Source: Amphiura filiformis (lineage: Eukaryota; Echinodermata; Ophiuroidea; Amphilepidida; Amphiuridae). Taken from it: DNA of 64,000 bases. The translations under genes were made by a program, and so were the position numbers. Positions within the stretch are counted from its first letter, which is position 1; each line of letters opens with the position of its first letter. Of this stretch, positions 3,406 through 41,195 are shown piece after piece. The notes under the pieces were generated by a model, which was given only the letters and a program-made list of their open reading frames with translations, did not search any database and was not told the origin of the DNA. Location: the NCBI RefSeq assembly GCF_039555335.1, contig NC_092637.1, positions 37,784,526 to 37,848,525 on the forward strand. The letters are read 5' to 3'.

Positions 3406-3445
3406 TTAATGTAATATGACATCATCAACGTTTCCTATTTTGCAG

Positions 3446-6400: not shown

Positions 6401-8583
6401 AGTGACGTATAGTTTTATTGTCAGTTTGCCAGCAATAGTATGTATTTATTTCTTTTGAAAAATATATAACAATAAAATCTATTTAGTTTACTACAGAAAT
6501 TTCACATCATTTACAAAATATAATGAATGTCTGATTTACACAACTCGATTTTAAATTGGCATTTCTTCAAACCCGATTTTCTCGAAAAGTTGTTTATTCG
6601 CGGCGCCCCACTATACGCCACTATGGAATACGGACGACGAATTTTCTCAAAAAAGTCAAAAATTCAAGATAGACCAGTATGTGATGCACCCGACGATATA
6701 TTTATGTATTATACTCTGTTCTAATGCACCTACACATATTCAACTCATTTAATACGACTGAAATACGGTGGAGTTTGACGTTTATTGGGGTCTCGAGTCG
6801 AGTCGAGTCATTGAAGTCTCAAGTGAGTCAAGTCTTGTCAGAAGTTTGAGTCAGATTCATTTTGGATTTGATATAAATCAAGTCGACACTTTTAAGTCGA
6901 CACATTTTAGGACCTACAATTTCGAGCCGAGTCTGAGTCACTCGACTCATTCCAAGTCGGAATCGTTACACATGTTACAAGCCAATCATTGTTGTTTTGT
7001 TTGTTCATAGCTTGTCGTGAAATAATTTACATTGAGCCACCTGTCAGCAGTATAGACTTCAAATGGATAATTATGAGTATTGTGTTGTTGGTACTTTTAG
7101 CTGGACTCATGTGTATTATGCTAGTTAGACTTTGTATATATTGCCAGGATTCAAATGAATATGCTACATTCAGGAAGGAGACTGCTAATTCCAAATGGAC
7201 ATCGGTAGGTATCCAGATGTTGTCATTCTACTAAAACATAAGCCATATTTGTGGCGCAGTGGCTCGAGTCCCTACCTGAGACCCGAGTTCGATTCCCGAT
7301 GTGACCAAATCTGAATTTAATTGTCATGATTGGTATAGATGAAATATTTGCTGTTGTAAGTTTCTTTAAAGAGGGTCTTTCTACATGGGTCTCAATTAAT
7401 TATAAAATCGGGCCCCTGATTCTTGGGTATTATGCCTGATGCGGGTGTCTCCTTTATACCATTGTACTGTTAGTGCAATACAAGTAATTGAATACATGAA
7501 TTCAAAACCCACCCAAGTCCATGGGAAGTGATTTTGAGAAAAAAACCTGTGTATCATTTTAATTCCTTCAGTTAGCTTTACCTGGTCAATATGGTAAGTT
7601 TTACGTGCAAATGAGTGGGTTAAACTGTATTAGGTATCACGATTAGCATTTCAGGAACTTGGTGGGGTTCATTTTAAAATATACAAAGACAACAGTGTTG
7701 GAATGAGATTACCACTAGTAAGATAATACAAAATAAAGCACACAGGTATGTTTAATGTTGATAAGCATTCTGCCATTTAATATAAACCACACACTGTCCT
7801 TTATCAAACCCATTTTTTTTTCAAAAGTCACTCTCCAGCAATGAATGTGTTACAAGTGGTCTTTTATACATACTGGATTTCAATCAATGTGTTACAAGAC
7901 TCAAATCATGGACTTGGGTGGTTCTTTCATACATGCTATTTTTCACATGGCCAATAGACACAGAGGGTGAATTTGAGTTGTTCTTTCATACATATTACAG
8001 GCCTGTGTATAGCAATAATTTCCCATGCTTAACTCAAGTATGGACTTGGGTGGGTTTTGTATTCATATATTCAAATAAACTAACCTGTCGAATGTGATAA
8101 TAACAGTGTTAAGTTCAATGGCGACCTAATTTTTTTTGTTTGTTGAAAACATGTATATATATATAACTTCAATGCGAAAGGTCAAAATGTTCAATTGATC
8201 GGCTTTTCCTCCCAGCTACACACACTTTAAGTAGGCCTACAAATCATTAGATTTATTAAGTTTTCTTCGAGGACTGTTAAAAATAAAAATATTATATCGC
8301 GAGTTTAAAAAAAAAATCAAAATAATTTGATATTAGAAGGACATTCCTCGTATTCAGAATGAAATTCGATGTGTCTGATGTGTTCTCATGTCCCACAATA
8401 CTGTGCAAAAGTTGTTATCCGCTCCTTACTGATTGAGTATTTTTTTCTTTTGTTTGATTATCTGCTTTCTTTTTTGTTGTTGTTTTTCCCCAACAGGCTG
8501 ACAATCCGTTGTTCCGGCGATCCATTTCAACGTATGTCAATCCCGTACACGGAGTCGACGATATCAACCAGAATTTACTTTAG
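3446..8583 (+). CDS. Integrin beta subunit, C-terminal part (four 3' exons)
   Basis: Exons are 3446-3575, 4676-4798, 7011-7204 and 8497-8583 (stop TAG 8581-8583), all with AG/GT borders and phases that join (1, 1, 0). The first two encode the membrane-proximal beta-tail: a Cys-rich block with ECVLCKVFDSG, then a strand region ending VVYVQK. The third encodes the last ectodomain Cys, a transmembrane helix (WIIMSIVLLVLLAGLM onward) and the membrane-proximal tail NEYATFRKETANSKW, matching the family's REFAKFE...AKW pattern. The fourth encodes the rest of the tail with NPLF where NPxY is usual, NPVH at the second NPxY site, and a 10-residue C-terminal extension. Integrin betas pair with an alpha subunit for matrix or cell adhesion and bind talin and kindlin through these motifs. 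EGF repeats, hybrid and I-like domains must lie upstream of the window. Which integrin beta paralogue this is cannot be told. Confidence 0.9.
3908..4028. repeat. Small MITE-like inverted repeat
   Basis: About 120 bp bounded by TTAGGGACCAATCGA and its near-complement TTGATTGGTCCCTAA. The interior is a run of AAATCTTAGAT-like palindromic motifs. It lies in the integrin intron between the first two mapped exons. No coding potential. Confidence 0.65.
4040..4501. mobile_element. TTAA-flanked MITE, family A, copy 2
   Basis: A 462-bp relative of the element at 2994-3405, in the same orientation and flanked by TTAA (4036-4039 and 4502-4505). The terminal repeats match copy 1 except for one substitution at the 3' end. 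It carries about 50 bp near the 5' end (around 4090-4140) absent from copy 1. It lies in the intron after integrin exon A. Confidence 0.9.
4955..5080. repeat. GAGTC-rich tract, left part
   Basis: Irregular short repeats of GAGTC, AAGTC and GACTC in the integrin intron. A similar tract resumes at about 6775-6965, on the other side of the 1.5-kb fold-back insertion, so the two are probably one satellite-like tract split by the insertion. Confidence 0.55.
5199..6699. mobile_element. Fold-back TIR element in an integrin intron
   Basis: The outer inverted repeats are ATATCGTCGG followed by GCATCACATACTGGTCTATC, with the counterpart at about 6664-6699. The left part (5211-5845) is a large fold-back with about 270-bp arms (about 5211-5480 and 5575-5845) around a central palindrome built on the same CATACTGGT motif (about 5547-5590). 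A second element (5969-6643) is nested in its right part. No protein-coding frame is recognised. Flanks show TA-like bases but no certain target duplication. Confidence 0.8.
5969..6643. mobile_element. Nested palindromic element with GTGGCGTATAG ends
   Basis: Bounded by AATTCGTCG...TGTATTCCATAGTGGCGTATAG and its inverted counterpart at about 6609-6643. Its core is a palindrome (6147-6363) with about 100-bp arms and a short spacer near 6255. The element sits inside the fold-back element 5199-6699, so it is probably the younger insertion. Confidence 0.75.
6775..6965. repeat. GAGTC-rich tract, right part
   Basis: Dense GAGTC/AAGTC/GACTC repeats ending about 45 bp before the exon that encodes the integrin transmembrane segment. 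It matches the tract at 4955-5080 in composition. The open frame through it is a by-product of the repeat. Confidence 0.55.
7249..7312 (+). repeat. tRNA-derived (SINE-like) fragment
   Basis: GTGGCGCAGTGG resembles a pol III A box and GAGTTCGATTCCCG a B box. The arms do not fold into a proper cloverleaf, so this is read as a tRNA-derived repeat in the integrin intron and not a working tRNA. Confidence 0.4.
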
Positions 8584-8974: not shown

Positions 8975-9216
8975 GTGATAGTACGCCAGTTCTAAGTGGA
9001 ATGCATGGAGAACCATTTAGACTCCTTTGTATCCAACAAGTTGACACACATTAATGATCCATCGTTAAACATACAAGATGAGCGTTTGATTCGACGACAC
9101 AGAATTTTAACATGTTTAATCAGCAAACTGTTCCCCAATCACCAAGTTGTCGACGCTCTTCCAGTCTGCTGAGATGTTGTGAGTTTGCCTTTCCGATAAT
9201 CGTACTTCAAGAGTAT
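8975..9216 (-). pseudogene. Decayed SRCR exon fragment
   Basis: The minus strand resembles the SRCR exon at 32932-34707. It shares LEVRLSE and, in another frame, a stretch ending GDWGTVC followed by a stop. Relative to that exon there is a one-base deletion near 9175 and another frame change near 9045, where a CRQL-like motif is only readable by shifting frame. Both halves of the domain lie within about 240 bp, without the transposons that split the other copy. It reads as a dead partial duplicate; splice sites were not found. Confidence 0.6.
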
Positions 9217-9729
9217 TTCTATGCGTAAAAGAAAACAGTATTGCGAGCATGGTAAAATGAAGAACTATCTCCAACTCAGTGAAATTATCCCTCAGTGTTG
9301 CATTTACCTAAGGGTTTTAATAGCAAGTGGCATCGTTGATCGTTGTACCATTTGCGGAAGCAGCCGACTGATGATGAATTTGTGGAAGCAGCAGTATTTT
9401 AACGAAATTTGATTATTATACCGGAAGTAACCCCTAAATGACATGACATGACGTGTACACCCTATAGACACTGACTAGTATAACCGATGCATGTGTTTAA
9501 AAATAAAATAAAATAAAGGCTACTTGCTTACACACGTGTATGGCTACTCTAAAAATAGAACAGGAATGCAAATTATAAAAAACAAGACTTAAGAAGGAAA
9601 CAGGATGAAAAAGAAAGTTTTCACATGACCTTGCCCACCTGACTGAAGGAGGGCTACCATTTTTGTTTCCAATGGACATTTTATTGTGAAATATCATTGT
9701 ACAAGGAATACATTAAAAAAATCCACATA
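9217..9729. other. No gene seen
   Basis: AT-rich sequence with a short AATAAAATAAAATAAA run near 9500. No supported gene; the small open frames lack splice support or recognisable domains. Confidence 0.4.
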
Positions 9730-9995
9730 GCCCCCGAATGAAAAGTATTTAATTATCTTTGTAATCACTCAAAAAGCATTTTGTGTGAATTTTACATCCG
9801 AACTAAGTGCTATTAAATTTTTATGAGCCTTTTTATTTTACATGTAATTAGAAATGGACGGCAATATTGAAAAACACTCATTTCGGCCCATTTTAGACAC
9901 TAAAAAGAATACCACTAATTAGTTCGGATGTAAAATTCACACACAATGCTACCTGAGTGAGTACAAACATAAGTAAATACATTTCATTCGGGGGC
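9730..9995. mobile_element. Palindromic MITE with TA duplication
   Basis: A 266-bp fold-back with terminal repeats GCCCCCGAATGAAA and TTTCATTCGGGGGC, flanked by TA at 9728-9729 and 9996-9997. The arms stay similar for about 80 bp and share CATCCGAACTAA or its complement. The TA duplication fits Tc1/mariner-type mobilisation. No coding frame. Confidence 0.85.
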
Positions 9996-11696
9996 TATAG
10001 CAAAAACAAAAAATGTCCTATACCTTAATGGTTATGGAACAAAGGTGCCATGCCCCTGGATCAGGCTAATGGATTATATCCCCATCTGACGAACAGGGAA
10101 AGTGGCTTTCTACAGGACCATCTTTTCGGCCTGGTTGTCGACAGTGTTTTGGATACGATCGATGTACGTTTTCTATTTGTACCCTCCTGGTTGAATCGAT
10201 AATGCACCCCATCTTTGAGTCATATTTATACCACTCCATAGCAGTAGCGTAGCTAGCGGGGAGGGGGTGGGGGAAGGCAGAGTGCCCTCCTGACTTAAAA
10301 TGAAAGAAAAAAGTGCCCCTCTGACAAAAAATTAAAGGGAAAATCCGGAGGGCACAGGTAAAGAAAAGGACCAAGGAGCCCCTTTTCCACCAAAATTCAC
10401 CCCGATCATGGAACAAAATAGTGAAAAAATGCAATACACAATGCACAAACCCTTTTCATCCTGATCATGTGCGAAAATAGTGTAAAATACAATTTGTTAC
10501 GCGAAAACAAAACCGGTATATGTATTGTATGATGCGACTGCAATGTTTTTCGTCTATGCCCCAAAAATTTTATTTTGCCTCCCCCTCCCTCCAAGAAAGT
10601 TGGCTACGCCCTTGCTCCATAGTACTCGTTAGTGGATAAATTTGGTTCATTCTATGTAGCAAACGATGTCACCAAACCAAACAATAGTACTGCACAGATA
10701 GTGCTTGGTACTATATTAGTAGCTTACATTGGGCCACACTCTGTTGTAAAACGTTCCAGTAAACAATAAACAATGTCAACATCTGCGACACACATGTTAT
10801 AGTTGTCATCTTTGATATTCCGCTTTTATAGTTTCGCTATTATTGCATTGTTTTATTGTCTCTATGACGGTTAGAGCTCTATGACGGTCAGAGAATTTTC
10901 ACTGTGACGGTTAAGGCATTTTCCCTATGACGGTAGAGCATTAAAGGACAATAACATTGATTGCCTAATGATCTGCTTTTGTATTGAAAACAATCTTTAC
11001 TACATACCAATGCATCTTCTGAGCTTTAAAACCGAATGGTAAAGACAAAATTAAGCTAATAAGTGATATAATGAAAGACAGAGATAAAAAGACTAGTTTG
11101 CGTCTGACGTCATCTGTCAAGCAAACTCGAGCACAGTTTGTTTACAAGTGTCGTGATGATATGAGTTGCTGAACCGAGCACCTTATTGTTAATTTTGCAC
11201 TTTCAAACATATAAACCATCTCAAAAGTTAGGTCTTAATAGTAGGAAACTTTCTTTCGCGAAGGCACCATGTCAACAATGCCTAGAAAAGTTGCTTTTTG
11301 CCTTGTAAAAATACGTAATTTTTCGCCATTTACTGCTATTCCTTTTCTCCGATCAGCACCAGATAAATCGACCTTCCTTGTACGCGCTAATTAACCAATC
11401 AAGGATCGTAGAGTCTTTTTATCTTTGTCTTCAATTATAGACAAAACATCTTTTAAGACATACGTATGCTATTTTTGTCAGCAATATTAGCACTCAAACA
11501 TGCTCATCTGTCACGACAAAGTTCGTTTATCAATATACCGTAAAACCCCGTCTAGAAGCATATATCAAAGAAACGCCCTCAATAAAGTTTGAGCAACTAT
11601 AATTATATTGGCACCACCGTGTACTGGCAATAGGTGGCTATGTATGTATATTGTATCACCAATCAATTGTATTGACATAATAACGAATGTTTCATT
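9996..11696. other. No gene seen; short tandem motif at 10855-10940
   Basis: No exon was supported. About four imperfect copies of CTATGACGGTTAGAG-like sequence lie at 10855-10940. A block around 10740-10850 resembles 36060-36180 (shared ATCTGCGACACACA), so it is probably part of a dispersed repeat. The minus-strand frames between 10066 and 10594 have no domain or splice support. Confidence 0.45.
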
Positions 11697-13337: not shown

Positions 13338-16327
13338 CTGAACAGTTTCATCTGTAGGATTGGTTTGGTTATCAAAGTAAATTTAGGTAGACAAATCCAG
13401 TAAAACTACTCACGTCTTTAGCTTTCGCCATCTCGGATGATGGCTTTCTCAAAAGTGACTTGGTTCACTGCTTCTCCCGCGGAAAGCGGCTGTAGCCTCA
13501 TTCCCAGAGTGTGATGGTACAAGCAGTGAGTCATATACGTGATCTAGAGTGTATGAGCCTATGTCCCGGTTCATGGTGGCGGCCCCCTTTCGAAAGCTAA
13601 AGACGTGAGTAGTTTTACTGGATTTGTCTACCTAAATTTACTTTGATAACCAAACCAATCCTACAGATGAAACTGTTCAGTGAATTGAGAAGTCGTTACG
13701 GTCAAACCGCAGTAGTTCATTTACGTGATCTAGAAAACACAGACCAAAAACTCGCTAGACATCGGCAACACTTGACGTTTACACACAGATGTAAAGATAA
13801 TGGACTAACACCATCGAGTCTAAAGATCCGCTGCCCCATTAACACCGAGAAGGCTAGAAACATCATTAAAAGAGCGGAAAAAGAGCTGATTAACGAACGC
13901 ATCAGGGTCGTGAGTAATAAAATTAAATATCTCCAGGGAAAACGGGAGTTGCAAAATAACGATCTAGAAACACTGCTCGTAAACAACAACACGGAGCATG
14001 ATTCCGATGTGCGCCGCCATATTGAAAATCATATCGTAAACAAAAGGCAAAATGAAGAAAAGAAGACGAAAGAAAGACACATAGCTAAATTGGATAGGCT
14101 AAAACAGAAACAGCAAGCCAAGTTTGTAGACAAAAAGAACACAGAGCTCGATTTGAGTGGAACCAATCTGAAGAAATGGCGTGAAAGGTGGGTGAAAAAC
14201 TTGTCAGAAAAAGACCTTACTGATCCCAAGAAAGCTTACTCGCGCGTGGGTTAGGGTTTGCCGTGTCTGTCAACAAAATTCCTCATGATGAATTTATTGT
14301 CGCTTGTGAGTCGGCATGTGCCAAGCTACCACCGGGAGAGGCACAAAACGTCCGTATGGAAGTTGCGGGATCACTTAAAACCGCTAAAATTCCCACATCT
14401 AACATCACCAAAGAGGAGAGAAAGGCAATAAAGGAACTCCAAAAATCGAAAGATTTGCTCATCATGGGGGCAGACAAAAGGCAAATGCACGGTAGTGCAA
14501 ACAATCCAGAGCTATGAAAGTAAAGTTGAAACCATGCTGAGTGACACAAAAACTTATGAAAAACTTAAGAAAGACCCAACACCTACTTACAAGCGGAAGT
14601 TGGTTGGTATGTTACAAAAGCTCAAGGCAGAGAAAAAGATCGAGGAGGGCCAATATAGGCTACTGTACCCCACTGCAGAAAACACACCGAGACTGTATTG
14701 CACCACCAAAATACATAAACAAGGGGACCCGATCCGGCCAATCGTGGATTACATAGGTAGTATTGGGTACCAAACATCAAAGGCACTTGCAGAAATTCTC
14801 TCGCCGCTAGTAGGGACAACCGAACATCACGTCACCAACTCAAAACAACTTGCTGAAGAGATTACAGGTGTACTCATCGATGATGGAGACATTTTTAACT
14901 CTCACGATGTGGTCTCACTATTCACAAACACACCAATAGACAAGACTCTAGAGATCATAAGAGACCGGCTTACCAAAGACACAACGTTACCCGAACGCAC
15001 ACGACTGAATGCCACCGACATCATGGAGCTGTTAGAATTTATTCTCACGACGACATACTTCTCCTTCAGAGGTAACATCTACCGCCAGAAGTTTGGAGCA
15101 GCTATGGGTAGTCCTGTTAGTGCGATTGTGGCAAACCTATACATGGAATGGCTAGAACAGCAAGCTATTGCCACGGCACCACTCGATTGTGCACCAAAAT
15201 ACTGGCGCCGTTACGTGGATGACGTGCTTGAGGTCATCAGAAAGGACACCACAGAGAAACTAACTGATCATCTAAACAAGGTGGACGAAACGGGGAATAT
15301 TAAATTCACGTATGAGGAGGAGAAGGATTGTAGCATACCGTTCCTTGACACATTAGTGGTCCGTAAACAAGATGGCAGCATAAAACTTCTCATATACAGA
15401 AAGAAAACCCACACAGATCAATATTAACTTTGACTCACAACATCCCCTACATCAGAAACTCTGGGTCATTCGTAAACTGTTTGACAGAATGGATAGCATA
15501 GTGACAGAGGAGGAAGATAAAAAGGAAGAAAAGAAGATCAGAACTGCACTTCAAAACTGTGGCTATCCAAGGTGGGCAATGGACCGTGTTAAGCAGCAAA
15601 TGTCAACAAATAAGATCAAGAGCAACAGTTCAAAGAAGAGCACTGATGATAACCCGTCGAAGGGTATGGTAGTTTTACCGTACGTTGCAGGCCTCTCAGA
15701 GAAGCTCAAGCGCATCTTTTGGAAGCACAAAACCGCAACAGCCATGAAACCTCATAACACTATAAAGAGCTTATTAGTGCACCCTAAAGACAAAAGAGAA
15801 ACCAACCAGATGTGCGAGGTGGTCTATAACATCGACTGTAAGGGTTGTGAAAAATCATACATAGGTGAAACAGGGAGAGCGTTTGGCACACGGTTGAAAG
15901 AGCACCAGAAAGATGCAGAGAAAGCGGAAAACAAGAAGTACACCCGCGCAAGACGGAAAGAATCTACCACAGAATTCAACAAATCAGCAATTACGGACCA
16001 CGTCGCTGCCGACAACCATGTTATAGATTGGGAGGGAGCTACACTACTTGACAAGGAAGCGAATCAGTTCAAAAGAAAAGTCAGGGAGGCCATATGGATC
16101 AGGAGAAAGGGGGCCGCCACCATGAACCGGGACATAGGCTCATACACTCTAGATCATGTATATGACTCACTGCTTGTACCATCACACTCTGGGAATGAGG
16201 CTACAGCCGCTTTCCGCGGGAGAAGCAGTGAACCAAGTCACTTTTGAGAAAGCCATCATCCGAGATGGCGAAAGCTAAAGACGTGAGTAGTTTTACTGGA
16301 TTTGTCTACCTAAATTTACTTTGATAA
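13338..16327 (+). mobile_element. Penelope-like retroelement, near full length
   Basis: About 3 kb flanked by a 12-13 bp direct repeat, CATATCATGCTGA, at 13325-13337 and 16328-16340. The 5' end has an inverted repeat (13335-13437 against 13579-13681). The segment 13371-13585 is an inverted copy of the 3' end (about 16107-16326), and 13579-13640 also repeats 16267-16328 directly. This mixture of direct and inverted terminal repeats is typical of Penelope-like elements. The coding region lies between. Target duplication and intact ends point to a fairly recent insertion. Confidence 0.9.
13643..16247 (+). pseudogene. Penelope-like polyprotein (RT plus GIY-YIG endonuclease), frameshifted
   Basis: Four overlapping frames make up one decayed protein of roughly 850 residues. 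The N-terminal part (13643-14254) is basic and coiled-coil-like. The RT (about 14495-15420) has HDVVSLFTNTP, GAAMGSPVSAIVANLYME and the catalytic RYVDDV. The C-terminal GIY-YIG endonuclease (about 15820-15920) has VVYNIDCKGC and SYIGETGRAFGTRLKEH. Single-base frame changes lie near 14235, 14478 and 15426, with a stop after each shift. The order RT then GIY-YIG is that of EN-containing Penelope-like elements, which use the endonuclease for target-primed reverse transcription. With three breaks this copy should be inactive. Confidence 0.9.
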
Positions 16328-19031: not shown

Positions 19032-22000
19032 TTATGAAAAAATTATGAGCTTTCTTCTAATGCCAAAATCTCCAGTTCCTTTAGTCCCGCTGCCAAATGC
19101 AATTTTGCCACAAAGCTTGTTTTGCTGAATTTGGTCCTTCCATCTGGTTGGTGGACGACCTGGTGGTCTTTTCTTGCTAAAGTAATTAATGTAAGCTTGG
19201 TGGGGAAGCCGGTGTGGAGGCATCCTGAAGATGTGCCCAGCCCATTTCAAACGTCTCCGGCAGATAACATCATTGATGGAGCTAGTGATGTTGAGACTCT
19301 GTCTGATGGAATGTTGCGGATTTCGTCAAGTAGGGAAACTCCAAGCATTGCCCTAAGGCGTCGCATTTCAAAGACATCCAGTCTGTACGTAACGCCCAGG
19401 ATTCTGACCCATAGGTGGCAATAGGGAGGATGAGCGACTGGTAGATCCTTATTTTCAGCGATCTGGTGATGTCATGGTTAGACCAGATGGTATTTTTCAG
19501 TCTACCAAATGCCCAGTCTGCCAACTTTGTGCGACGTTTAATATCCTCTTCTACAGAGGGCACTCTGCTACCCAGAAAGACAAAATTATTTACTTTGTCA
19601 ATGGGCATTTGGTTCAGCATGATATCTCTTGGATCGTCAGACATGATCTTGCATTTTGTTTTTTCATTCCCCAGCTGCTGCATGCTTTTTCCAATTCATT
19701 AGTGGAGATTTGCAAGTCCATATCCATGAGTGTGGTGTCATCTGCATATCGCATGTTGTTAATGCACATGTCACCCATCTGCACACCTGAGCCTAAATTT
19801 TGGATGTCCTTCATGACAAACTCCAGATAGATTGAAGATGCATGGTGAGAGACGACATCCATGTCTAACACCAACTAGGACTTCAAACCAATCGGTGATC
19901 TTTCCATTTACCACGACTGAGCACTTAGTTTGCTCATACATTTTTGCAATGAGGTTCACCAGTTTGGTGTCTACTCCTACTGATCGCAGACATTTCCAAA
20001 GGGCCTCCCTCCATATGGTGTCAAATGCTGCTTTGAAGTCTACATAGTTCCAGTGTATTGGAATGCGTCTTTCTTTAGCCTTTTCAAAGATTTGGCGTAC
20101 TGTAAATACCGCATCTGATGAGGTGCCTCTGGAACTCCTGAACCCACACCGTTACTCTCTCAGATGGTTATATACAGATGGTTATCTACAGTCTGTTGTA
20201 TTCGGTTAAAAACCATCCTACAGAATACTTTCCCCGGGATTGACAGGAGGGTAATAGCTCTGTAGTTGGCTGGGTCCAGTCTGTCGCCCTTTTTGTATAC
20301 AGGGGTTATTAGACCTTTACTCCAGTCTTCAGGGATTTTTCCTTCAACCCAGGCGGTGCTGATGATCTTCAACAACATTTGTTTCAACATGGGTCCTCCT
20401 GCTTTCAACACTTCTGCTGAGATCTTATCCCAACCACACGCTTTGTTTTTAAGCTTCTCGATGGCCTCTTCAACTTCATCTATTGAAAAGGGCAAACTTG
20501 CTGTAGCAGGGTTGACAGGCTCCAGGATGGAGTTAAGTATATTACAGTCTCTGGGGAATTCTGTATTCAGATGTTTACTGAAGTATTCCTCCCAGCACTT
20601 CATTACTTCCTCTGGGGCTGTTTTCAGTGAACCATGCTTGTCATTGGCTGCAGTTTGAACTTTGGTTTTATCACCTGCTAGCTTTGTGACTTTCTTGAAG
20701 AGATCATGGCTTATGTTCTTTGCATGGGCTTCTTCCATTTCTTGAACGTCTTTTTCAAGAAGTTTTCTTTTCCACTGCTTCACTTGATATTTGACCCCTT
20801 TGTTCAGCTTCCGATAGCAGTTCTTCTTTGGCGCTGAGGGGTTGTTTAACATCAAGACTCTGGCTTTTCTTCTCAAGTGGCACATTTTCCTGACTTCTTC
20901 AGGCAATCCCTTCACTTGGCGAGCCCTCCTAATACCAACTGATTCTTCAGTAATTTTGTTTGTCGTGTCTCTGAACTACGCCCACAGGTCTTCTACATCA
21001 GTATCCTCCAGTTGAAGCAGGGGTTCATAAGTACCACCAAACTCTTCTGCAATCAGGGGGTTGGTAAGTCTACTGACGTCATAGCTTTTTGGAGTTGTTT
21101 TCCGGCGTTTGCTACTGACTGATGCTGACACCACTTAGTGATCACTAGATTGTGATCTGAGCCCACATCAGCTGAGCAGTATGATCGGCAATTCTGGATG
21201 GTACTTCGGTTCTCCTGTTGAGTTATGACGAAGTCAATCATATTTTTGTATTTCCCACAAGGTGAAGTCCATGTTACCTTTCTACAGGCTTTATGCTGGA
21301 AGTGTCAACTTGTGGAGCATGCAGAATTCCAACAGTTTCTCCCCTCTGCTGTTGATCTTACCAATACCATACTTGCCCATTGCGGGGGTCCAGGCTTTAC
21401 AGTCAGAGCCTATTTTGGCGTTGAAATCCCCCATCAGGATAAGTTTCTCCTTATTATTGACTTTCTGAAGGTGATGTTGTAGCTCATCATATAATTCACC
21501 ACTCTCTACATCACTGTGCGTAGTGGTGGGGTCGTAAACATTAATGATGTTGAATATTCCTTCTTTCCTTCCTGACAAGGCATTCAAGAAGTGGCTGTGA
21601 TATTAGAAGCCCAACATCTTCTATTCCAATGTCATCTTTCCTACCTGCTAGAAGGATGGTGTATTCGTCTTTGTTGATGAATGTCTCGGATTCTGTCAGG
21701 TGTGTTTCGCAAGGATGTCAAGACCAAATCTTCTAACCTCATCAAGGAGGATTTCCCAATGACCTTCCGTCCTAAGCGTTTTGACATTCCAGGTTCTTAT
21801 ATTAATACCACTGGAGCTCCTTTTCTTTGTAGGTTCCTCTACAGCAGTCTTTGTTAGAGTTGGCTGTTTTGTCACTATTGGCTTATTTGTCACAGTGCGG
21901 CTCATTGTATTTGAGGCCTGCTCAGCTGTGGCTTTTGTCACATTTTGGCATTTTGTCGACTTCCGGCTACGTACGCTGATCCTGGTTGTCTTCATTGTTT

Positions 22001-26441: not shown

Positions 26442-26447
26442 TTTATT
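26442..26447 (-). terminator. Candidate polyadenylation signal AATAAA for the receptor gene
   Basis: AATAAA on the minus strand about 200 bases after the receptor stop codon at 26644-26646. The position fits a 3' UTR end, but no transcript supports it. Confidence 0.4.
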
Positions 26448-26643: not shown

Positions 26644-29600
26644 TTAAGAAGTTTTCCACATCTGACGAGCGTTGTTATTGAATCCAAACGAGAAGAATAC
26701 GTGGACACCTTGAAGTGATGAAATCACGATAGCAATCCACCATATTACATCCACGTCAGCAGCGCTGGCTAACAACATCAGAATCCAACACAAACCCAGA
26801 ACAGAGGAAACCTAGGCAATATCAATAATGAAAAATAAAAATTATGATAAAGTGTATAGTTTGTAGGACAAGAGGTTTCTAGGTAAAAGGGGATTTTATA
26901 CACATTGGCACCATCCCGTCGGCCCTGACCAATATGTTAGTTCATTGGTCTTCCTTGGCCAATGTTAGTTCCACCGCAAATACCAATTGCTAACATTTAC
27001 GATGGTTCGATTCTAGACAGAAGTGGTTTCATTCTTGAGTCATAAGCAAGACACAAGGAAGAACTGCAACAACCCCACCTATCTCCCTTTGCATAGCAAG
27101 TAGCTTACCTTGGCAAATAGAATACATTCTTTCCATCCATTTTTATTGTGAGATTGTTGCTGCAGTGTGTTTGATCGATGTCTTGCCTTTCGCAGCTTAA
27201 TAAGCGTAAAAGTGACAAGGATGATGTTGATAATAAGACACATTGCTACAGGTATCCCAAATGCAAGCAGAGTCGCAGGTCCAGAGCGAAGCCAACATGA
27301 GGTGGCGTCATATACAGGGTTCAAACTTGAATGAAGACACTCGCATAAATGCAGGGACAAAGTTATGAGGACAATAGGCAAAGGTAACCCAAAACCCGCA
27401 AGTTGTAGTAAGAAGTTAATCTTAAAACGGTCATTAAATTTCTGCGTCACTTTCCATGCAAATCTGTAGAAGAGAATGCCCGCCAAAATAGATGTCCACG
27501 TGAACATAGCCAGCCAATAGTAATGAGATATAATGGAAAATATGATACATGGTGTTTCTGCAAGTGGCGCCATGTTAGACAAAATTGTAAACAACTGAGC
27601 GGAAAAGAGCGAAATTGAAAGTGAGATGATTCCGTTACCATAGGTATTTCGAAGCTTTTTAAATTTAATGTACGTAGTTAGTGTTCCAAGCGATCCAATG
27701 AGGGAGAAAGAGGATGTTACAATACTGACAATATCACTGGGGTTAAGAAAACCAGAATCCAATCTTTCTTCTTTATTTTGTCCAAATAACGAACTAATGC
27801 AAACCTGTGCCTTACCGTCAAATAATAGTAAGAAATCATTGTTCTTACTTTCCAGACCTTTGTAGATCAGAATCGTGCCATTTACATTGGTAGTAAACTC
27901 GCTGGCGTTTAAAGTTACGAATGCGCAATCAAGAATCGGGTTATCTACTTCATGACCACACATTAGTACTGTACGTTGACTAGATACATCGGGGGAGTCC
28001 AAAATACGCTTTTCATAGTAAACCATATATTTCGTGGTTATATAGATATTATCGGTTACGTATAACACCATATTCTCCTGTAGGACAGAAGGAACATGCA
28101 CAAATTCAAATGGGCTTCCAGAGTACCAGGTTTCTTTACAAAGGGTATTCAATGATTTGTCCCGTGATCTTTGTTCGCATGACATGAAGGCGTCCACGTT
28201 TGTTACACCACAGAGATACTGGTTATGTATGTCCAACTGTTTATTTTCGATCATGCGAATTAGTTCAAATCCGTATTCCGGACCAAATTCAAAAGCTATC
28301 CACTCCTTTTGCTTATCATTCATCATCATTATTTGACTATAATCATGTTCATTTATTTTTCTATTCCATGGTTTGCCCAGTGTTTCTTTTAGACATCGAG
28401 TTGTTTCTGACTGCGCTGATGCACTTCCAACATGTCCAAAGAAAAACGTACTTTTATGCTGACTACAATTCCAATTGTTAATAAAATGTAAATGTGACTT
28501 GTTATTTATAATACAATGACCAGAATGTGAAACGGAATATCCAGGTCTACACGTAATCTTACGGCACAATTTTGTCACCGGATCAAGAATTTCTCCAGAT
28601 GAGCATTTAACTTCAGTTGGGGCAGTTGCATCTGCTCTGCGGAAGTCCCACATATTTTGATATACGGATTTTGGTGAGTTATCACATCTAAAAATAGTCA
28701 TGTGAGGTATGGCATCATTACATATCGCACAGTGCGGGTTTTTGTACGCCAACTGTGTGCTGGTGTCACATCGTTTGAGTACGTACGATTTACATGCTGC
28801 AGACAATGATGAATTTGAAGATGTTGGACAATCATCAATGAAACACAGACGAATGCGTTTTCCGACTTTGAACTCTATGTCATATGATGTACTCCTAAGT
28901 AATGTTTCCCCGGTATTAAGAGCTGATTTGATGCACTCAGCAGAGTCTGCAGGATACACATTCCAAGGATGAACTTTCCTAAGCTCACGATAATGGCAAA
29001 TGGCGCAGAATATATTACGAAAGTTATAGCCAAAATCGTCAAGAACAGGCATTCCATTATTAAAAGCACTACTGCATTCTGATTTGATAAAGTTTTCTTT
29101 CCAGGAATATGGACATGAAGCTATCAGTTGGACTTGTACAGATTCCCGTATTGTATGACACACATGTGACTTTGGATCTACCCAATACGCCCATGTAATA
29201 TTGTCAGTTATCGTTAAGTCACAAGCAGATTTGTAATCTATGCAACAGTCTCCAAACTGTTGGCATTCTACGTCACATCGACAGGTGGTATGTTCTTTAT
29301 GATTGCATCGCCCTTCGCAACTCTCCTCGTGGGAAACAGACGTGTTCATCTTTAAGTTTTCAAGTTGTAAGACTGAAAAAATAAATAATTGTAAATCAGT
29401 ATAATTTTTCAACAAAGAATTCTTTTACACATTTAACACACCACAACCCACACACAATGAGGAATGCTATTGGACACTTCAAACCTTTTCTACAGTAGTG
29501 ATGACTTTGTACTAATCCATAGGTGGCGCAGGTGCCTCTTACAAAACCGATTTGCGGGTTCGTATAAGCATCAGTAAGTAAAATTGCAACTTTTGTCGAA

Positions 29601-32600
29601 TTCGATGAATAATGAATATTATGGTTTCTCGTTTTCTTGCACGTAATTTTATCAGAACCGAGTTTGAAGGGATGAGCGTCTTTCGAGCATAACTTGTACC
29701 ATTCCGACATGTCCTGTAGATTACGGACATAAATCATGAATAGATTGGTGGTGAATTCGTCCACTAGTACCAGACTGACATTCCATGCTGTTACTGGTAC
29801 GATATTCGTGTCTGAAATTATATTAAACATGAAAGTGATGATGGCAAGTAGTAGTGGTGGTGGTGATGATGATGATGATTTCATCCTTGACTAGGATTTG
29901 AACCTGCGACCTGCTAGGTATCTAGACCAGTGCTCTTACCAACTGAGCTATCAAAGAAGCAAATGGTATGAAAGCGTTTTAGTGTACTACATAAGCCTAC
30001 ATATGATCCAGCGATCATAAATCAGAATGCATGCTGCCCTCTCTTGACATTGTATTGCTATGTTTCATATTGATGAAGGGGTGATATTACATTTTTCATG
30101 GTGCATTTTATATCTGTCCTCATATGAGGACACGGCGCGTGAAAGGGTTAATTCCTACTACATATTACTCCTGCGTTATCATTCCTGCATTCACAGTTAG
30201 CTGTAATCTCGCCCTTAAGACACGAATCAAAGGTCCCGTAACATCTGGAAGATTTAAGTGTCCCGAATACCTCATTTGGTTTACTTTCTGACCCACTATT
30301 ATGAATAGTAAGCGCAGCTAAGGCCCCGTTGTATCCAAACTGACGACACAAAATGTGGGCACTATGAAGCTTCCAATTGTCGGTACAGATCCTCCCCCAT
30401 GATAAGCCATTGGAGATTTCCACAATAGCTGTTTTAGTTGGATTTCCGATAAGTCGAAGAGGTGTGGTATCATCTGAAAGAAGAAACATCATTCTATTTT
30501 GTAAACCTAAAGGTATATATGACCACATTGTCAAAACAATATCTTATGGGAAGTACAAGATCTAACCCAATGCTACTTCAAGTACAGAGATCATATGTGA
30601 CGTGTCATGTCAAAAGGAGACACTTTTGGAAAGGATCGTAAACGGAGAAATAGCCAAAAATCTGCCCGGGGTGATTTTTTCACAATTTGGGTTTGTTGCG
30701 AATTTGTGATGTTATTAATGTTAACAATATTTTCTGATAGTTTCAGACCAGAATATAACTGGCATCTTGTATTTTTTGAGATATATTTCAAGGTAATTCC
30801 TATTCTCAACATTGTCAATAATATTTTTAAAGGCCGATATCTCAATTTCCAATTTTATAATACTATAACTTACGAACTCAATAACTTCGCTTAGGCATGT
30901 CTGATTTCATTGGGGAAAACAGTGTTGTGGAGCAAAATATCTCTATATTTAAGATATGTAAAAATCTCAAAATTGATAACCTGCCCAAAAGTGTCTCCTT
31001 TTGACATGACACGTCACATATTTCATTGAATGAAGTAATCAACCCCTTCTGGGTTCAACCCAACTATAAATAATATACTAACCGATTAAACTAACTCTTA
31101 TACTTCCATCAAGTCTTTAATTAATCCACAAATTAGTCAATAAGATGTGACTAATTTGTTTTGTACCACCGTTTTCGAAAAGTCACCTTTTTCGGTGTGT
31201 ATATATTTGCAGTAACCCTTATCTCGAAAAATTGGCTACATCAATTGGTGGATTTTTCTTCTGAAAGCATGTTTGCTCTTGAATATTTTTTCCGAATTAG
31301 CTTGGCCGAGAAAACTTGCCAAGGAAATGTTAAAAACTGTTTTAACGTACAACAACCAAAATATAAATTTAAAACGGCAAAGTAACCGATGTTTCGAGAG
31401 CCCAAAACATCCCGTTTAAAAGGATAAATCAACGAGTGTCAGCAAGCACCACGTGTCACCCAACTGATTTGTTTTGTATGCTTTAGATCATGCAAAATGC
31501 AATCCTAATGATTGTTTAACCTAGTTGTTTTTCAAAGTAGCTCCGACTCCGTGCTTGCTGTCACAAGATCCTTCTTTCTTGACTATGTCAAAAGACTTAA
31601 AATACTAAAGAAAATATCAAAAGCTTACTCGGTGAACATCGGATGCTCAAAATTCGATCTTGACTGTACGAATTCATTGTTTTATGGGCACCGATTTTAT
31701 ATAAGAACTCATCATCAGGTTTGATACTGGTATATCCCAAAAATGAAGGAAACCCGAAGCCTATACAAATACGATGCAAGTAGTCAATGGCGTCAATTAT
31801 AGACTGACCAGGTTCCAGACCTATACTTCTCCATTGATCGTGGTCATCAAATCTGTATTCTAGGCGTCCATCGTACGGAGTGGTGCCATTCACAAGACGC
31901 CATCTGCCAATGGTTTGATTTCCTGTGATATAACGTAAAAAGCCGAATAATGACGAGTATACAGGGGGAGAGAATAACGCGTGTTATTGTTAAATTAATG
32001 TTTTTATATGTTTTTGTATTATACAGGGGCTCCAACAGTTTTAGACTATAGCTTCTCGTTACACCTCCTCCATTCTGCTACTATTTTTTCCGTTTAATAT
32101 ATTTGGTGTTTTTAATGTGTTTTGATGATGGGGGTTATTTAATGCCCTGAGTGCTATAGCCATAGACTTATAACTAATAGTCTAGGTTTTTAGATATTTT
32201 CTCAAATTATCAAGATCTATCTCCAGAACCACTGAACCAATGCTAGGCTTGTTTGTACTCATTTTAATGCATTTTTCATGCTGATTCCAAATATGTTCAT
32301 GAAAATTTACCTTTCTGTACTTTTCGAATTTCTTAAAGAAATTATGAAACACATCATTTACCGACACCCGCGTGTAGAGAGATAAACTTACCTGGATCGC
32401 AGGCGATGTGAACAACGCGATTGTCAACACAAGGAACATTTTTCCAGGAAACAGTGTCAGTGGCACTGGGTAAATGTAATTCATTCCAAATAGCTGCGCG
32501 TGGACTGTTTCCTTCCCAAATATATATTATCGGATTATTCGATGCATAACCAAGGGAAGTGCAAATGTAACGCACTTCATCTTCTGTGCTCAAATCTAAA

Positions 32601-32837
32601 CAGACAGATCCCCACGGCTCAGTATTTCTTCGTATTTCAAGTCTTCCTTTATAAGAGGGTTCACAATATTCATTTACTATTCTCCACTGAAAGATATCAT
32701 CCTCTGCGAAAAAAAAGAATGAAACAAATCAAAACAACAGGAATGGTTAAGATAACTGTTATTGATTATGACGGACTAAATACGTCAAAAACAACGACGT
32801 CGACGACGACGACGACGACGACGATGATGATGATGAC

Positions 32838-32875
<38 letters not shown>

Positions 32876-34707
32876 CAACGATGATGATTATAATCATTAT
32901 TATAAACTGGTTAAAACAAGTCAATAATTACCGGTGAGGCAAGAAAGATACAAATTATTCGATGAACCACACGACGGCTGTGACCAATTACTAAAGAGTG
33001 GTGTAAAAGACCATCTATTGAGTGAATTAAAATATCTATTTAAGTGTGTCAGTTCTAAGTGGACTTCAGATAGAGAATCATTTTGAGATCTTGTTGCGTC
33101 TAAACGATTACTGTATGAGAGAACGCCTTTGTACCCGCAAATGACGCACAGATGATGCATCGTTAAAAGTATGTCTGTATCATAAGCATGATAAGTGACT
33201 ATTCAGTATCGAAGTTACGTAATGTTACTATGCCAACGGGATCACGCGCCAGAGTAATGAACTACGATCGAAACAATCACCACACAAAGTATATGGTACT
33301 CGAAGGATATAAAAATAGCGTGATCCGGTAACCAAGAGAATTACGTAACCACTTCGATGCTGAATTACTCGATGTCACATAACAGTCTGCCGCCTGGACA
33401 ACCAATTCTTTAGAAATGCTTAGTCGCGCTAAAAGTCGATCGATACATGTAAAAATCAGCACAATTCAGAGATACACCTTTTTGCTATGAAATTAATTTT
33501 CTCCGTCAAATATAAAGCAATATTTTTTCTTTCTGCAGTAATGTCAGTTAAAAACTTGGTGCTTGAATATACATTTTTTAAAATCCTGGTGTTAAAATTA
33601 AGCATCAAATTGTGTCTTTTAGTGTGATATTTTTGATTTTTATAGGCCTTGAATTCGCCTGCGAGCTTTTTACGGAATTCATGTTTTAGCGTCTCAAACT
33701 AACATAGTTTGCTAAAGAAAGATATTTCCCACCTCTGTAAAGCACATCGTGTGGGTCTATATGTTATAGTTTTGTCAGAATTTCCGTATTTGTTTTACCC
33801 TTTTTCCATTCATGGTCCGAAAATGTCAAACTAAGTAAAAGTAGGCAATGGTGAGTACTTTTATCTCGAGAGCAACCAGCTGAAATAGTCGATATTTCCT
33901 TTGTTGTTATCCAGGTCAATTTTTCATTGAAAGCAAATTGCCCGACCAGCGATTAAATCCCCAATTGGGTGTTCTGGTTAAACATGATCAGTAGGAGCGC
34001 TATAGGTCTGGGAATTTCTTTGCTATATTGAAGTTCTGGCAACACTATAGCCATGCCGGTATTCCTATTAAACCCAGGGATATCGATCCATAATGCTAGT
34101 ACTAGCCTTTAGATTTCACGTGTTGATTTAGAAATTTTTTCAGCCGACAGTGAAAGATGGTGAAATCAAAACGGAAATTCTGACAAAACTATGATATATA
34201 GCTCACGGTGATGTGCTTTAGAAAGTTGGGAAAAATCCTTCATTAGCGAACTATATTACTTTGAAAAGCTAAAAGGTTGATCCAAGAAAAAGCTCGCGGG
34301 CCGAGCTGAAGCCTATAAAAATCGAATATCTTACACTAAATGACTGAATTTCAGGCCTAAGTTTAACACCAGGATTTAAAAAAAAATCAGTATCAAGCAT
34401 TATAGTTTTTCCAGCCATTTACTGAAAAAATGAAAATTATTGCTTTTCATTTGGCTGAGAAAAAAAATTTTACACTGAAAAGGTGTAACTCAAAATTTTG
34501 CTCATTTCAACACCAATTTCGATCGTTTGTATTGCCTCATTAAATGACTGAGTGAGCCTTGCAGAACAAAAGAATCGGTTGTGCAGGTAGCTGACTGATA
34601 AGTTGAGCAGCAAACTGTTCCCCAATCACCATGCTGTCGACGCACTTCCAGTCTGCTAAGATTTTGCTGGTTTGTCGATTCCGCTAATCGTACTTCAAGA
34701 TGTGGAT
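26644..34707 (-). CDS. Multi-SRCR, somatomedin-B, seven-transmembrane receptor (partial 5' end)
   Basis: Mapped exons, 5' to 3': split SRCR-a (34707-34598 plus 33190-32932), SRCR-b 32703-32392, SRCR-c 31922-31629, SRCR-d 30473-30159, unassigned exon 29811-29485, main exon 29372-27109, last exon 26811-26644 (stop). All ectodomain introns are phase 1; the last is phase 0. SRCR-d is clearest (WGRICTDNW, ILCRQFGY, GVIC). The main exon opens with a somatomedin-B domain (SCEGRC, CRCDVEC, FGDCCIDYKSAC). A long Cys-rich region follows, with two repeats of an N-x-x-CAIC-type motif, then a 7TM domain from about 27745. TM2 carries SLSISLFSAQ, and TM6/TM7 in the last exon carry SVLGLCWILM and SLQGVHVFFSFGF, like secretin/Methuselah-type GPCRs. 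No GPS cleavage motif was seen. The tail is very short. It is probably a plasma-membrane receptor with a scavenger-like ectodomain; ligand unknown. The signal-peptide exon is not identified, SRCR-a may be disrupted, and the 29485 donor is weak (GTTTGA). Confidence 0.85.
29485..29811 (-). CDS. Unassigned ectodomain exon of the receptor
   Basis: A 327-base exon in phase 1-1 between SRCR-d and the somatomedin-B exon. It encodes about 109 residues with four Cys, including YKLCSKDAHPFKLG and GFVRGTCATYG. The alternation of strands and the terminal C-x-x-YG faintly recall F5/8C or fucolectin-like beta-sandwich domains, but no diagnostic motif settles it. The acceptor TTTCAG/ACACG is good. The donor could be GTTTGA after AAAAG or GTAGAA a few bases earlier; both keep the phase. 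Confidence 0.6.
29884..29956 (-). repeat. tRNA-like sequence in a receptor intron
   Basis: On the minus strand, TAGCTCAGTTGGTAAGAGC is a good A box and D arm, and GCAGGTTCAAATCCTAG a good B box, 73 bases in all. The anticodon loop CTAGATA would give AGA, but the body lacks the long arm of a serine tRNA and the T stem pairs badly. A run of ATC/ACC trinucleotides follows. It is read as a tRNA pseudogene or SINE head between SRCR-d and the next exon. Confidence 0.5.
30596..31018. mobile_element. TA-flanked MITE with long near-perfect TIRs
   Basis: A 423-bp element with ends TGTGACGTGTCATGTCAAAA and the reverse complement. The match runs inward for about 35 bp, and TA flanks it at 30594-30595 and 31019-31020. 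It lies in the receptor intron between SRCR-c and SRCR-d. The open frames in it are not genes. Confidence 0.9.
31019..31628. other. Intron sequence, no further structure seen
   Basis: AT-rich intron of the receptor gene between the MITE and the SRCR-c exon. No extra exon with conserved SRCR features was found. Confidence 0.4.
32792..32910. repeat. ACG/ATG trinucleotide microsatellite
   Basis: Runs of ACG then ATG repeats, with interruptions, in the intron between SRCR-a and SRCR-b. The methionine- and threonine-rich frame across it is compositional. Confidence 0.9.
33195..33378. mobile_element. Fold-back MITE inserted in SRCR-a
   Basis: A 184-bp inverted repeat with about 50-bp arms: left arm GTGACTATTCAGTATCGAAG, right arm ending CGATGTCAC with a CTTCGATGCTGAATTACT block. 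ATAA flanks it at 33191-33194 and 33379-33382, consistent with a 4-bp target duplication. It lies next to the larger insertion 33383-34597 and shares the middle ATAA with it. Confidence 0.75.
33383..34597. mobile_element. CAGTTAGC-type TIR element (1.2 kb) inserted in SRCR-a
   Basis: Starts CAGTCTGCCGCCTGGACAAC and ends in the inverted form (TTGTGCAGGTAGCTGACTG), flanked by ATAA (33379-33382 and 34598-34601). A longer copy in the other orientation is at 38549-40815. No transposase frame is recognised, so it is non-autonomous. It interrupts the SRCR-a coding sequence just after the codons for TVCCSTY. Confidence 0.85.
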
Positions 34708-34776
34708 CTACATGTACAGTCAATGAATAAGGTGGCAGCTTATGAATCATATACTTACAGTAAAAGTGAGGGTATA

Positions 34777-35489
34777 AATAAACTTCAGAATGTTACTAAC
34801 AAGGATATATACTTTTATGATGGGAAAATTGTTTTTGTTGCATTAATGAATTGCACCACACAATTATATAGGAAAGCTATGATATCAAAGGTATCGACTA
34901 AACCAATATGTCAAACCTTTTGGGAAAATAAATTCAAAAACATGAAATTCAATTGGAGCAAAATTTGGAAAGATATTCTGGCAACAAAAGAACCTAGGCT
35001 AATGACATTAAATTGGAAAATAACCAGTAATATTTATGCAACAAAAGTCTTTCTTAACAAAATAGGAAAAGAAAAAAGTAATGTATGTGAAATTTGTAAC
35101 GAAGTAGACTATATTGAACATTTCTTTTTTAGGTTGCAAAAAAAAAAAAAAAAAAGATATGGAGCGAAGTGGACAAAAAAATTTTGCAACACTATAATGT
35201 TAAAATTAAAACCACACAAGCAGATGTTATCTTTGGTTACTACCATGCAGGAAAATGTAATACTATTATCAATAAAATAATAAGTGTTTGTAAACTGTCA
35301 ATTAGTAAATATCGTTACGGGAAATATCCCGATTTGATCAGTTTATTACATTCTGAATTAAGAATCAGAAAGCTTATGTGGTAATTGTAGTAATCAGTAA
35401 AATCAGAAATTAGTAAAGTGAGAACAAAATGAGTTATGTAAATATATGTGATGAAATCAACGAAGCAAATAAAATAAAAGATAAAAAAA
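34777..35489 (+). pseudogene. 5'-truncated LINE insertion (3' end of the RT protein)
   Basis: Flanked by a 13-bp duplication AAGTGAGGGTATA at 34764-34776 and 35490-35502, and ending in a short A-rich tail. The frame from about 34790 encodes the C-terminal region of a LINE protein with LNWKITSNIYATK, a NVCEICNEVDYIEHFFF zinc-binding-like motif and, after a shift in a poly-A run near 35150, ADVIFGYY and a stretch ending RKLMW before the stop at 35382. Truncation plus frameshift make it non-functional. It is a different lineage from the LINE at 19032-22140. Confidence 0.85.
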
Positions 35490-38548: not shown

Positions 38549-40815
38549 CAGTTAGCAGCCTGGACAACCGATTCTTTTGTTCTGCAAGACTCACTCAGTC
38601 ATTTAATGAGGCAATACAAACGATCGAATTTGGTGTTGAAATGAGCTAAATTTTGAGTTACAACTTTTCAATGTAAAATTTATTTTCTCGGCCAAATAAA
38701 AAGCAATCATTTTCATTTTTTCAGTAAATGTCAGGTCAAATTGTAGTGCTTGATACTGTATTTTTTTTTTCAAATCCTAGTGTTAAACTTAGGCGTGAAA
38801 TTCAGTCATTTCGTGTAAGATTTTCGATTTTGATAGGCTTAAACTCTGCCCGCGAGCCTTTTTTGGATCAACCTTTTAGCTTTTCAAAGTAATATAGTTC
38901 GCTAATGAAGGATTTTTCCCAACTTTCTAACGCACATCACCGTGAGCGATATATCATAGTTTTGTCAGAATTTCCGTTTTGATTTCATCATTTTTATTCC
39001 CGCCTGAAAAATTTCAAAATCAACGCGTGAAATCTAAAGCTAATACTAGCATTGTGGATCGATATCCCTGGGTTTAATAGGAATACCGGCATCCGGGTAC
39101 AGTGTTGCCAGAACTTCAATATAGCAACGAAATTCCCAGACCTAATAGCGCTCCTACTGATCACAGCCGCGTAGCTGGGATTTTTTCCAAGGGGGGTAAG
39201 CCTGTATGGGACGGTGGCCCAAATCCACCAAATTTCCCTGCACTTGGGGGGGGAGGGGGAGGGGGCCCAAATAGACCATTTTGCCAGGCTTATTGAATAT
39301 AATCGTATGGTATTGCATATCGTATGGATTCTCCATCTCTCTTCCCCTCTTCTCCCTCTGTCAGGTTTTTGTTTTTTAACAAAAACCTGTTCAAGCAATT
39401 ATTTAAAATTGCTTACCTAAAAACAGAATAACTTGGATGTTAATACTTGACGTAGTGTTTCAATTGTCACGAAGGTGACTGGGTATGGTGCCTTTTGTTT
39501 GTGTTTGTTTGAAACTGCTTTTGGAAACCCACCGAAAGTCATAGGCCCTAATGAAGCAGCCAAAACAATACCAGGTTAAACATGGAAGTTTATAAAAACC
39601 TATAAATAACCTTAAGGAAAAAAAACCATTTATGGCAACAATAAGCCTTGCATTGGAAGTCATGGTTAAAGTGTGTTGAGTACCACCCCAAAGTTTCCCT
39701 ACATACACCCCCACTACCCACCTCACACACCTCTGCACCCACCCCACCCCATAGGCCTACATGCACATGATATTACATAATAATATATTGCATAGCTATA
39801 CATTTAGGTATACGCCTACATGTCAATTAAAAACAAACCCGAACACAAGTCTGAAGGGTGTCATGAAAATGGCAACCCGCGATGGGGGAATACAAAATTC
39901 ACCTGGAGATAGGAGGGACAGAAGATTATAATATATAGACCCATACGATGTGCGTTACAGAGGTGGGAAATATCTTTCTTTAGCAAACTATATTAGTTTG
40001 AGACGCTAATAAACCAATTCCGTATAATAACACGCTAATTTTTCTAGGTTTGGACCGTGGATTTTCCCGTGGACCTCAAGCGTGCGTCTCTTTTAAGAGA
40101 AAATACGGACTAACCTAGGTAAACAAACAAACAGACAGACAAAATGGTTTTCATAATCATGGAATCCATATAAATTGAAATTGCAGGCTATCACGGGAGC
40201 AAATTTTTAAAATTCACCTCATTTACCAGAAAACCCAATTGGGGATTTGGGCTACTAAATCGCTGGTCGGGCAATATGCTTTTCAATGGAAAATTGCCCT
40301 GGATGACAACAATGAAAATATCGACTATTTCTGCTGGTTGCTCACGAGATAAAAGTACTAAGTTTGACATTTTCGGAGCATGAAGGGAAAAAGGGTAAAA
40401 TAAAAACGCAAATTCTGACAAAACTATAATATATAGACCCACACGATGTGCGTTACAGAGGTGGGAAATATCTTTCTTTAGCAAACTATATTAGTTTGAG
40501 ACGCTAAAAAACAATTCCGTAAAAAGCTCGCAGGCGAACTCAAGGCCTATAAAAATCAAAAATATCACACTAAAAGACACAATTTGATGCTTAATTTTAA
40601 CACCAGGATTTAAAAAAAATATATATATCCAAGCACCAAGTTTTTAACTGACATTACTGAAGAAAAAAAAAAAAATATTGCTTTATATTAGACCGAGAAA
40701 ATTAATTTCATAGCAAAAAGGTGTATCTCTGAATTGTGCTGATTTTAACATGTATCGATCGACTTTTAGCGCGACTAAGCATTTCTAAAGAATCGGTTGT
40801 CCAGGCTGCTAACTG
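38549..40815. mobile_element. CAGTTAGC-type TIR element, long copy
   Basis: The ends are exact 29-bp inverted repeats starting CAGTTAGCAGCCTGGACAAC, and TAGC flanks the element on both sides (38545-38548 and 40816-40819). It matches 33383-34597 in inverted orientation across both flanks but carries about 1 kb of extra sequence (about 39163-40195). That insert includes a fragment of the same family (about 39930-40030) and C-rich low-complexity sequence. No transposase is recognised. Confidence 0.85.
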
Positions 40816-41195
40816 TAGCTGCTACTGTTTTATCCTCTGGACCTTATGGTGCACGATTTTTTTGCATACCGAAAGTTGGACAATTTTCCTCTGTATAAAT
40901 GGGAGAAAAACACATATTATTGATATAAACGTTTTATAAATGTGGATAGGGCTGCCATATTTTAAAGTCCGAACGGTAGCGGTCAGAGCGTAAAGGAGCC
41001 GCCTAAGGTTATTTCTAATCGATATTAATATTAATTTCAATTAAAATGATAGAAAACAAAATCTCCAATACTTGACATTGGAAATTATGTTTGACACTCG
41101 CATGGCTTTGGATTTCTATTTAATTGTATTACTTATAATTAGGGCTCACCGTTACTTTTTTTTATTGATTTAGCTTGGTACGGACAAGAACTTAA

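Follow-up and report, generated by a model that had tools for sequence, protein, structure and literature searches.

The window, the whole stretch of DNA that was analysed, spans 64,000 nucleotides of the Amphiura filiformis genome. On its minus strand, exons running from 34707 down to 26644 code for SRCR, Somatomedin_B (SMB) and 7tm_2 domains, as identified with Pfam. This is a real receptor locus with an unusual domain order, in which a preliminary description had misread one exon as two; the outer exon ends given there (34707 and 26644) and the placement of all exons on one strand are confirmed. Our model begins with exon 1 (36138-36045), which falls beyond the interval first read (26644..34707) and supplies the start codon and a signal peptide (MTTITCVSQILTLLIVCWDGLQLSAAQ...); it ends in phase 1 at a donor (AAG/GTAAG) holding joint rank 2 among 554 GT sites. 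Next come exon 2 (34707-32932, phase 1-1), which carries SRCR unit 1 and is interrupted; the exon of SRCR unit 2 (32703-32392, phase 1-1), whose donor is 1st of 554 and acceptor 2nd of 446; the exon of a degenerate SRCR-like unit 3 (31922-31629, phase 1-1); and that of SRCR unit 4 (30473-30159), which has a weak donor. The model continues with an exon for a 109-aa segment without a domain match (29811-29485), whose donor is uncertain and which has a possible alternative ATG upstream, at 29884, and with a long exon (29372-27109) for SMB, a Cys-rich ectodomain and TM1-TM5. The last exon (26811-26644) encodes TM6, TM7, a short tail and the stop codon; an AATAAA lies at 26447 on the same strand, about 200 bases past this stop.

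Exon junctions are in phase 1 across the ectodomain and in phase 0 from TM5 to TM6, in agreement with the preliminary description, the splice sites having been picked to fit these phases. Splice-site ranks (554 GT donors and 446 acceptors were ranked) are rough, being based on generic position frequencies. With the exon 2 inserts removed, the joined frame is 1,380 residues long and its sole stop is the terminal one; the same holds for an earlier, intron-based joined model of 1,391 residues. Codon scores, which distinguish reading frames poorly, rank the model frame above the two other sense frames in six of the eight pieces scored, the exceptions being the first exon and the last. Antisense frames outscored it in exon 2 downstream of the inserts (3/3), in the first exon (1/3) and in the last exon (2/3). 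Searches for related sequences gave no pattern match in a collection of viral contigs, and nine pattern matches but no relative by tblastn in a prokaryotic collection of genome contigs, both collections being silent on animals. Within the 64-kb window, no convincing homologues of exons other than 1 and 2 were found elsewhere.

The preliminary description had counted at least four SRCR exons. Four units are indeed present, but its first two "SRCR exons" are a single exon interrupted by two nested mobile elements. Element 1 (33383..34597, 1215 bp) lies inside exon 2, has terminal inverted repeats CAGTC(A/T)GC... and is flanked by a 4-bp TTAT target duplication. Element 2 (33195..33378, 184 bp) adjoins it, with inverted arms GTGAC...GTCAC and TTAT flanks. 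The boundaries of both were read by eye, and the arm alignment of element 2 is imperfect and gapped. A blastn search with 33382-34597 found a relative of element 1 at 38549-40816, with collinear pieces 88-91% identical and additional weaker matches between opposite arms; this distant copy has the ends CAGTTAG...TAACTG and TAGC on each flank. No further copy of element 2 was seen within the window. Once both elements are excised (1,407 bases, counting the additional TTAT copies), position 34598 meets 33190, and the exon pieces 34707-34598 and 33190-32932 form a stop-free exon of 369 bases in phase 1-1; reading through with the inserts kept meets 23 stops. In the sequenced copy, SRCR unit 1 can be produced only if splicing removes the inserts. 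If exon 2 is skipped instead, the frame stays open, its phases being 1-1, and a receptor of 1,257 residues with three SRCR units results. An ordinary intron between 34549 and 33174 was considered and rejected: its donor ranks 380th of 554 and sits inside element 1, nearly the whole stretch removed (34548-33175) is mobile-element DNA, and the unit spliced from the resulting two exons has no Pfam SRCR match.

Exons 1 and 2 have a partial, decayed copy on the minus strand at 8986-10844, from which the mobile elements are absent. The copy of exon 1 (10844-10724) is 78% identical in DNA by blastn and 74% identical in protein across 27 aa (10809-10729). The first match to exon 2 (9212-9121) is 87% identical in DNA, and a second, at about 9021-8986, covers the second half of the exon in a 37-column alignment with a score of 38, a value reached by none of 500 shuffles (best 28). 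Some 100 bases separate these two matches in the copy, compared with about 114 in the rejoined exon; the copy at 9212-8986 therefore has no inserts. Since exons 1 and 2 recur collinearly at 10.8-9.0 kb, we assign the signal peptide to the same gene as SRCR unit 1. The copy itself is broken by alignment gaps and by a stop codon, the latter read by eye.

The window contains other features. On the plus strand, exons for the C-terminus of an integrin beta (tail domain, transmembrane and cytoplasmic parts) lie at 3440-8580 and, joined by hand, match Pfam Integrin_b_cyt (2e-12) and Integrin_B_tail (8.8e-12). Plus-strand frames at 14432-16247, with Pfam matches to RVT_1 (7.6e-5) and GIY-YIG (0.0011) that both fall below the cut-off, belong to a retroelement that we take to be Penelope-like; the frame before them (13613-14254) has no Pfam match. 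A reverse transcriptase relic on the minus strand (19774-20151; RVT_1 3.9e-11) adjoins a frame (20163-20975) with only weak Pfam matches below the cut-off. Within the introns of the receptor we observed an open frame on the plus strand (34660-35277), possibly a LINE relic, which falls mainly within the first intron and matches zf-RVT weakly, below the cut-off (9.4e-5), and, before SRCR unit 4, an inverted-repeat element (30593-31021) whose 42-base arms are 95% complementary. A tRNA match at 58867-58937 (plus strand; Rfam, 34.1 bits) is absent from the ARAGORN output, and a short hairpin-like unit (cgtatgtggcacatacga...) in tandem copies was spotted by eye at 976-1395.

The Pfam search that had been proposed as a check was run on the joined translation and placed SRCR, Somatomedin_B and 7tm_2 all above cut-off. 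For SRCR (PF00530), the 1,391-residue model scored 3.1e-14 (53.6 bits, cut-off 26.1). Membership of the SRCR superfamily, taken as a PF00530 match above this cut-off, comes through two of the four units, which pass by themselves: unit 4 (30473-30159; 49.0 bits, 7.9e-13) and unit 2 (32703-32392; 27.7 bits, covering only profile positions 6-44). Unit 1, with the inserts removed, gives a full-length match below the threshold (16.1 bits, E 0.014, profile 9-99 of 100) and aligns with the other units at 19-23% identity. Unit 3 (31922-31629) alone has no Pfam match and is SRCR-like by alignment only. A profile built from the four units matched 28 distinct PDB sequences at E<=0.01, with M130 (CD163), CD5L and CD6 among the top. 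Unit 4 by itself matches 26 PDB sequences at E<=0.001 (phmmer), CD163 (M130) and CD5L included, and is therefore the main contributor to the result of the four-unit profile.

The 109-aa exon that follows (29811-29485) had been left without a domain in the preliminary description, and it stays so, with no trustworthy match in Pfam, NCBIfam or PDB. The sole Pfam result is a weak and implausible ETRAMP (0.027 and 0.019), and a single-sequence AlphaFold model is poor (mean pLDDT 37.9). We had suspected a truncated discoidin/fucolectin-type domain; this identity was dropped, Pfam giving only ETRAMP and NCBIfam and PDB nothing. The acceptor of the exon ranks 114th of 446, which counts against a single gene, though the rank is 108 for that of exon 2 and 86 for that of the last exon.

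For the downstream part of the locus, a 7TM receptor that also carries SMB and a Cys-rich ectodomain is well supported. SMB is indeed fused to the long ectodomain and the 7TM region, as first described: the exon 29372-27109 alone matches Pfam SMB (1e-8) and 7tm_2 (4.8e-16). On the joined model, Somatomedin_B reaches 1.3e-7 (32.2 bits, cut-off 23.1) and 7tm_2 1.6e-17 (64 bits, cut-off 20.6), the latter over profile positions 6-250 of 250. The hydropathy profile of the 7TM region has eight local maxima at a loose cut-off, with two overlapping pairs, and five segments at a strict one; it supports the helices loosely, and the 7tm_2 match is the firmer evidence for them. Compared with the PDB at E<=1, the SMB-7TM part matched 23 distinct sequences: 8 through SMB and 15, adhesion GPCRs without exception, through the 7TM region. 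Neither Mth receptors nor secretin-type receptors are among the 23. Past SMB, the Cys-rich ectodomain extends for about 490 residues in the same exon as TM1-TM5 and includes two CAIC motifs (residues 704 and 796 of the 1,391-residue model); nothing convincing matched it between SMB and TM1 (best E 0.58 in PDB, 0.16 in Pfam).

The absence of a GPS before TM1, noticed at first reading, is borne out. Pfam lists no GPS, GAIN, HRM or Methuselah_N family, whether the whole model and the 7TM exon are searched at E<=1 or the post-SMB ectodomain at E<=5; these negatives are limited by the HMMER filters, which remove most matches above about 0.1. Furthermore, the 120 residues preceding TM1 contain neither an H-[LIMF]-[ST] motif nor a Trp. 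Of the traits of adhesion GPCRs (B2), the receptor thus has a 7tm_2 domain nearest adhesion receptors and a long modular extracellular region, the SRCR share of which counts only if there is one gene; no GAIN/GPS was detected before TM1. Methuselah_N (PF06652), the ectodomain of arthropod Methuselah receptors, and HRM, the domain of secretin hormone receptors (B1), were not detected either.

How the two parts belong together is less firmly established, and the weak point of the model is the SRCR-to-SMB join. We favour, as the probable arrangement, one minus-strand gene for a signal peptide, an array of four SRCR units of which one is degenerate, the 109-aa segment, SMB, the Cys-rich ectodomain and 7TM. 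Firstly, the SRCR, SMB and 7tm_2 domains all stand above the Pfam cut-off in the joined model, which counts for one gene. Secondly, a phase-1 acceptor precedes the 7TM exon, whose start shows no signal peptide; this exon hence needs another one upstream. Thirdly, the minus strand has neither AATAAA nor ATTAAA from 31121 to 28357, so that no such signal separates the SRCR exons from the SMB exons. The use of phase 1 throughout does not decide between one and two genes, because independent extracellular modules show it likewise.

The reading that competes best, though we consider it unlikely, is that of two neighbours: a secreted SRCR protein ending GVICSRN-stop at 30148, followed by a Methuselah-like 7TM receptor of the SMB type that begins with ATG 29884 and has its own signal peptide. 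It draws on the in-frame stop straight after the last SRCR unit, which ends 11 nt beyond the exon end, and on the weak and displaced donor of that exon: this donor ranks 117th of 554 GT sites and lies 1 base past the final Cys codon, against 7 bases in the three other SRCR exons, and the expected place reads AT, not GT. The upstream in-frame ATG at 29884 is followed by a hydrophobic run that matches that of exon 1 in strength (12-residue mean 2.56 versus 2.4), and SMB-7TM receptors of several animals are described with SRCR going unmentioned in the accessible text (PMC4768249, PMC3261222). However, the start of a separate downstream gene would sit only about 264 bases past the SRCR stop, and AATAAA and ATTAAA are absent from this space, although hexamers one base away from AATAAA are present between the two halves (TATAAA 30112, AATACA 30056, ACTAAA 29983, AATATA 29824, GATAAA 29653). 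Simple-repeat codons make up part of the alternative signal peptide, and the end of a tRNA-like element overlaps with its ATG, so this peptide may be a chance read-through of an intron. Moreover, 7TM receptors bearing SRCR do exist, according to the available parts of PMC2246102 and PMC4302439. The tRNA-like element is a tRNA-Ser-like sequence of 75 bases (29883-29957, minus strand), possibly a tRNA-derived repeat. It is also conceivable, but quite unlikely, that the locus has a dual output, unspliced transcripts giving a secreted SRCR protein and spliced ones an SRCR array on a GPS-less 7TM, with the weak donor and the stop acting as a switch. Very unlikely is a single decaying gene, a pseudogene or null allele: the inserts that give 23 stops when exon 2 is read through, the broken related copy at 9.2 kb, the degenerate third unit and the AT in place of GT at the last SRCR donor speak for it, but the 754-codon 7TM exon and the remaining SRCR exons are open, and exon 2 is symmetric, so that skipping it preserves the frame.

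The SRCR exons and the SMB-7TM exons are thus likely joined in one transcript. The coupling of a scavenger-type array to a G-protein-coupled core, put forward in the preliminary description, is well supported on its SMB and 7TM side and likely, if unproven, for the SRCR array. In a single-gene receptor, the SRCR array and SMB could bind microbial, matrix or cell-surface ligands; a role in pattern recognition is putative. Without a GPS, the autoproteolytic tethered-agonist route would not be available; a ligand or tension acting on the Cys-rich ectodomain might shift the helices, and this movement would activate G proteins. If there is a single transcript, modules often tied to innate recognition are wired straight to a G-protein core that has no adhesion-receptor cleavage site, and invertebrate microbe or matrix sensing via GPCRs becomes testable with one molecule.

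Sponges are very distant from bilaterians. The sponge adhesion receptors Aq712029 and Aq715659 likewise combine several SRCR repeats with a 7tm_2 core (PMC4302439), but a word search of the accessible text of that paper gave no somatomedin. In another sponge, Halichondria panicea, a Figure 1 legend lists symbols for SR (SRCR), SO (somatomedin-B-like), GPS and 7TM (PMC8242945), the comparison extending to this legend. The adhesion GPCRs of amphioxus include SMB, Kringle, C-type lectin and SRCR within the set of one species; SMB and Kringle belong to a ten-gene expansion, and SRCR and SMB might share a chain (PMC2246102, in its accessible part).

SMB-bearing Mth-like receptors have been described in sea anemone, amphioxus and acorn worm, the Methuselah_N ectodomain (PF06652) being confined to arthropod members (PMC4768249, accessible sections); in an earlier amphioxus survey, methuselah receptors were not seen there (PMC2246102, likewise in part). 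Nematostella XP_001628572, Branchiostoma XP_002608881 and Saccoglossus XP_006821924 thus resemble the present receptor in having SMB and the same broad 7TM class and in having no Methuselah_N. They differ in that SRCR goes unmentioned in the available portion of PMC4768249, a comparison by description only. NvX and planarian PARF1 also join SMB (single, or two in one planarian member) to an adhesion-like 7TM; again, SRCR is not mentioned in the part of PMC3261222 at hand.

The order proposed here had at first been matched to no named receptor class. No class with this order was found in our comparison either: within the accessible parts of freely available papers that include PMC6208332, PMC2396169, PMC13197933, PMC4769524 and PMC7308585, we found no description of SRCR, SMB and 7TM on one chain, though database records may well exist. 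The novelty does not extend to the pairings, which are already in print: SRCR with 7TM (PMC2246102, PMC4302439) and SMB with Mth-like 7TM (PMC4768249), each as given in the accessible text. If the single-gene model is true, SRCR capture and SMB capture by 7tm_2 receptors, known separately, can combine.
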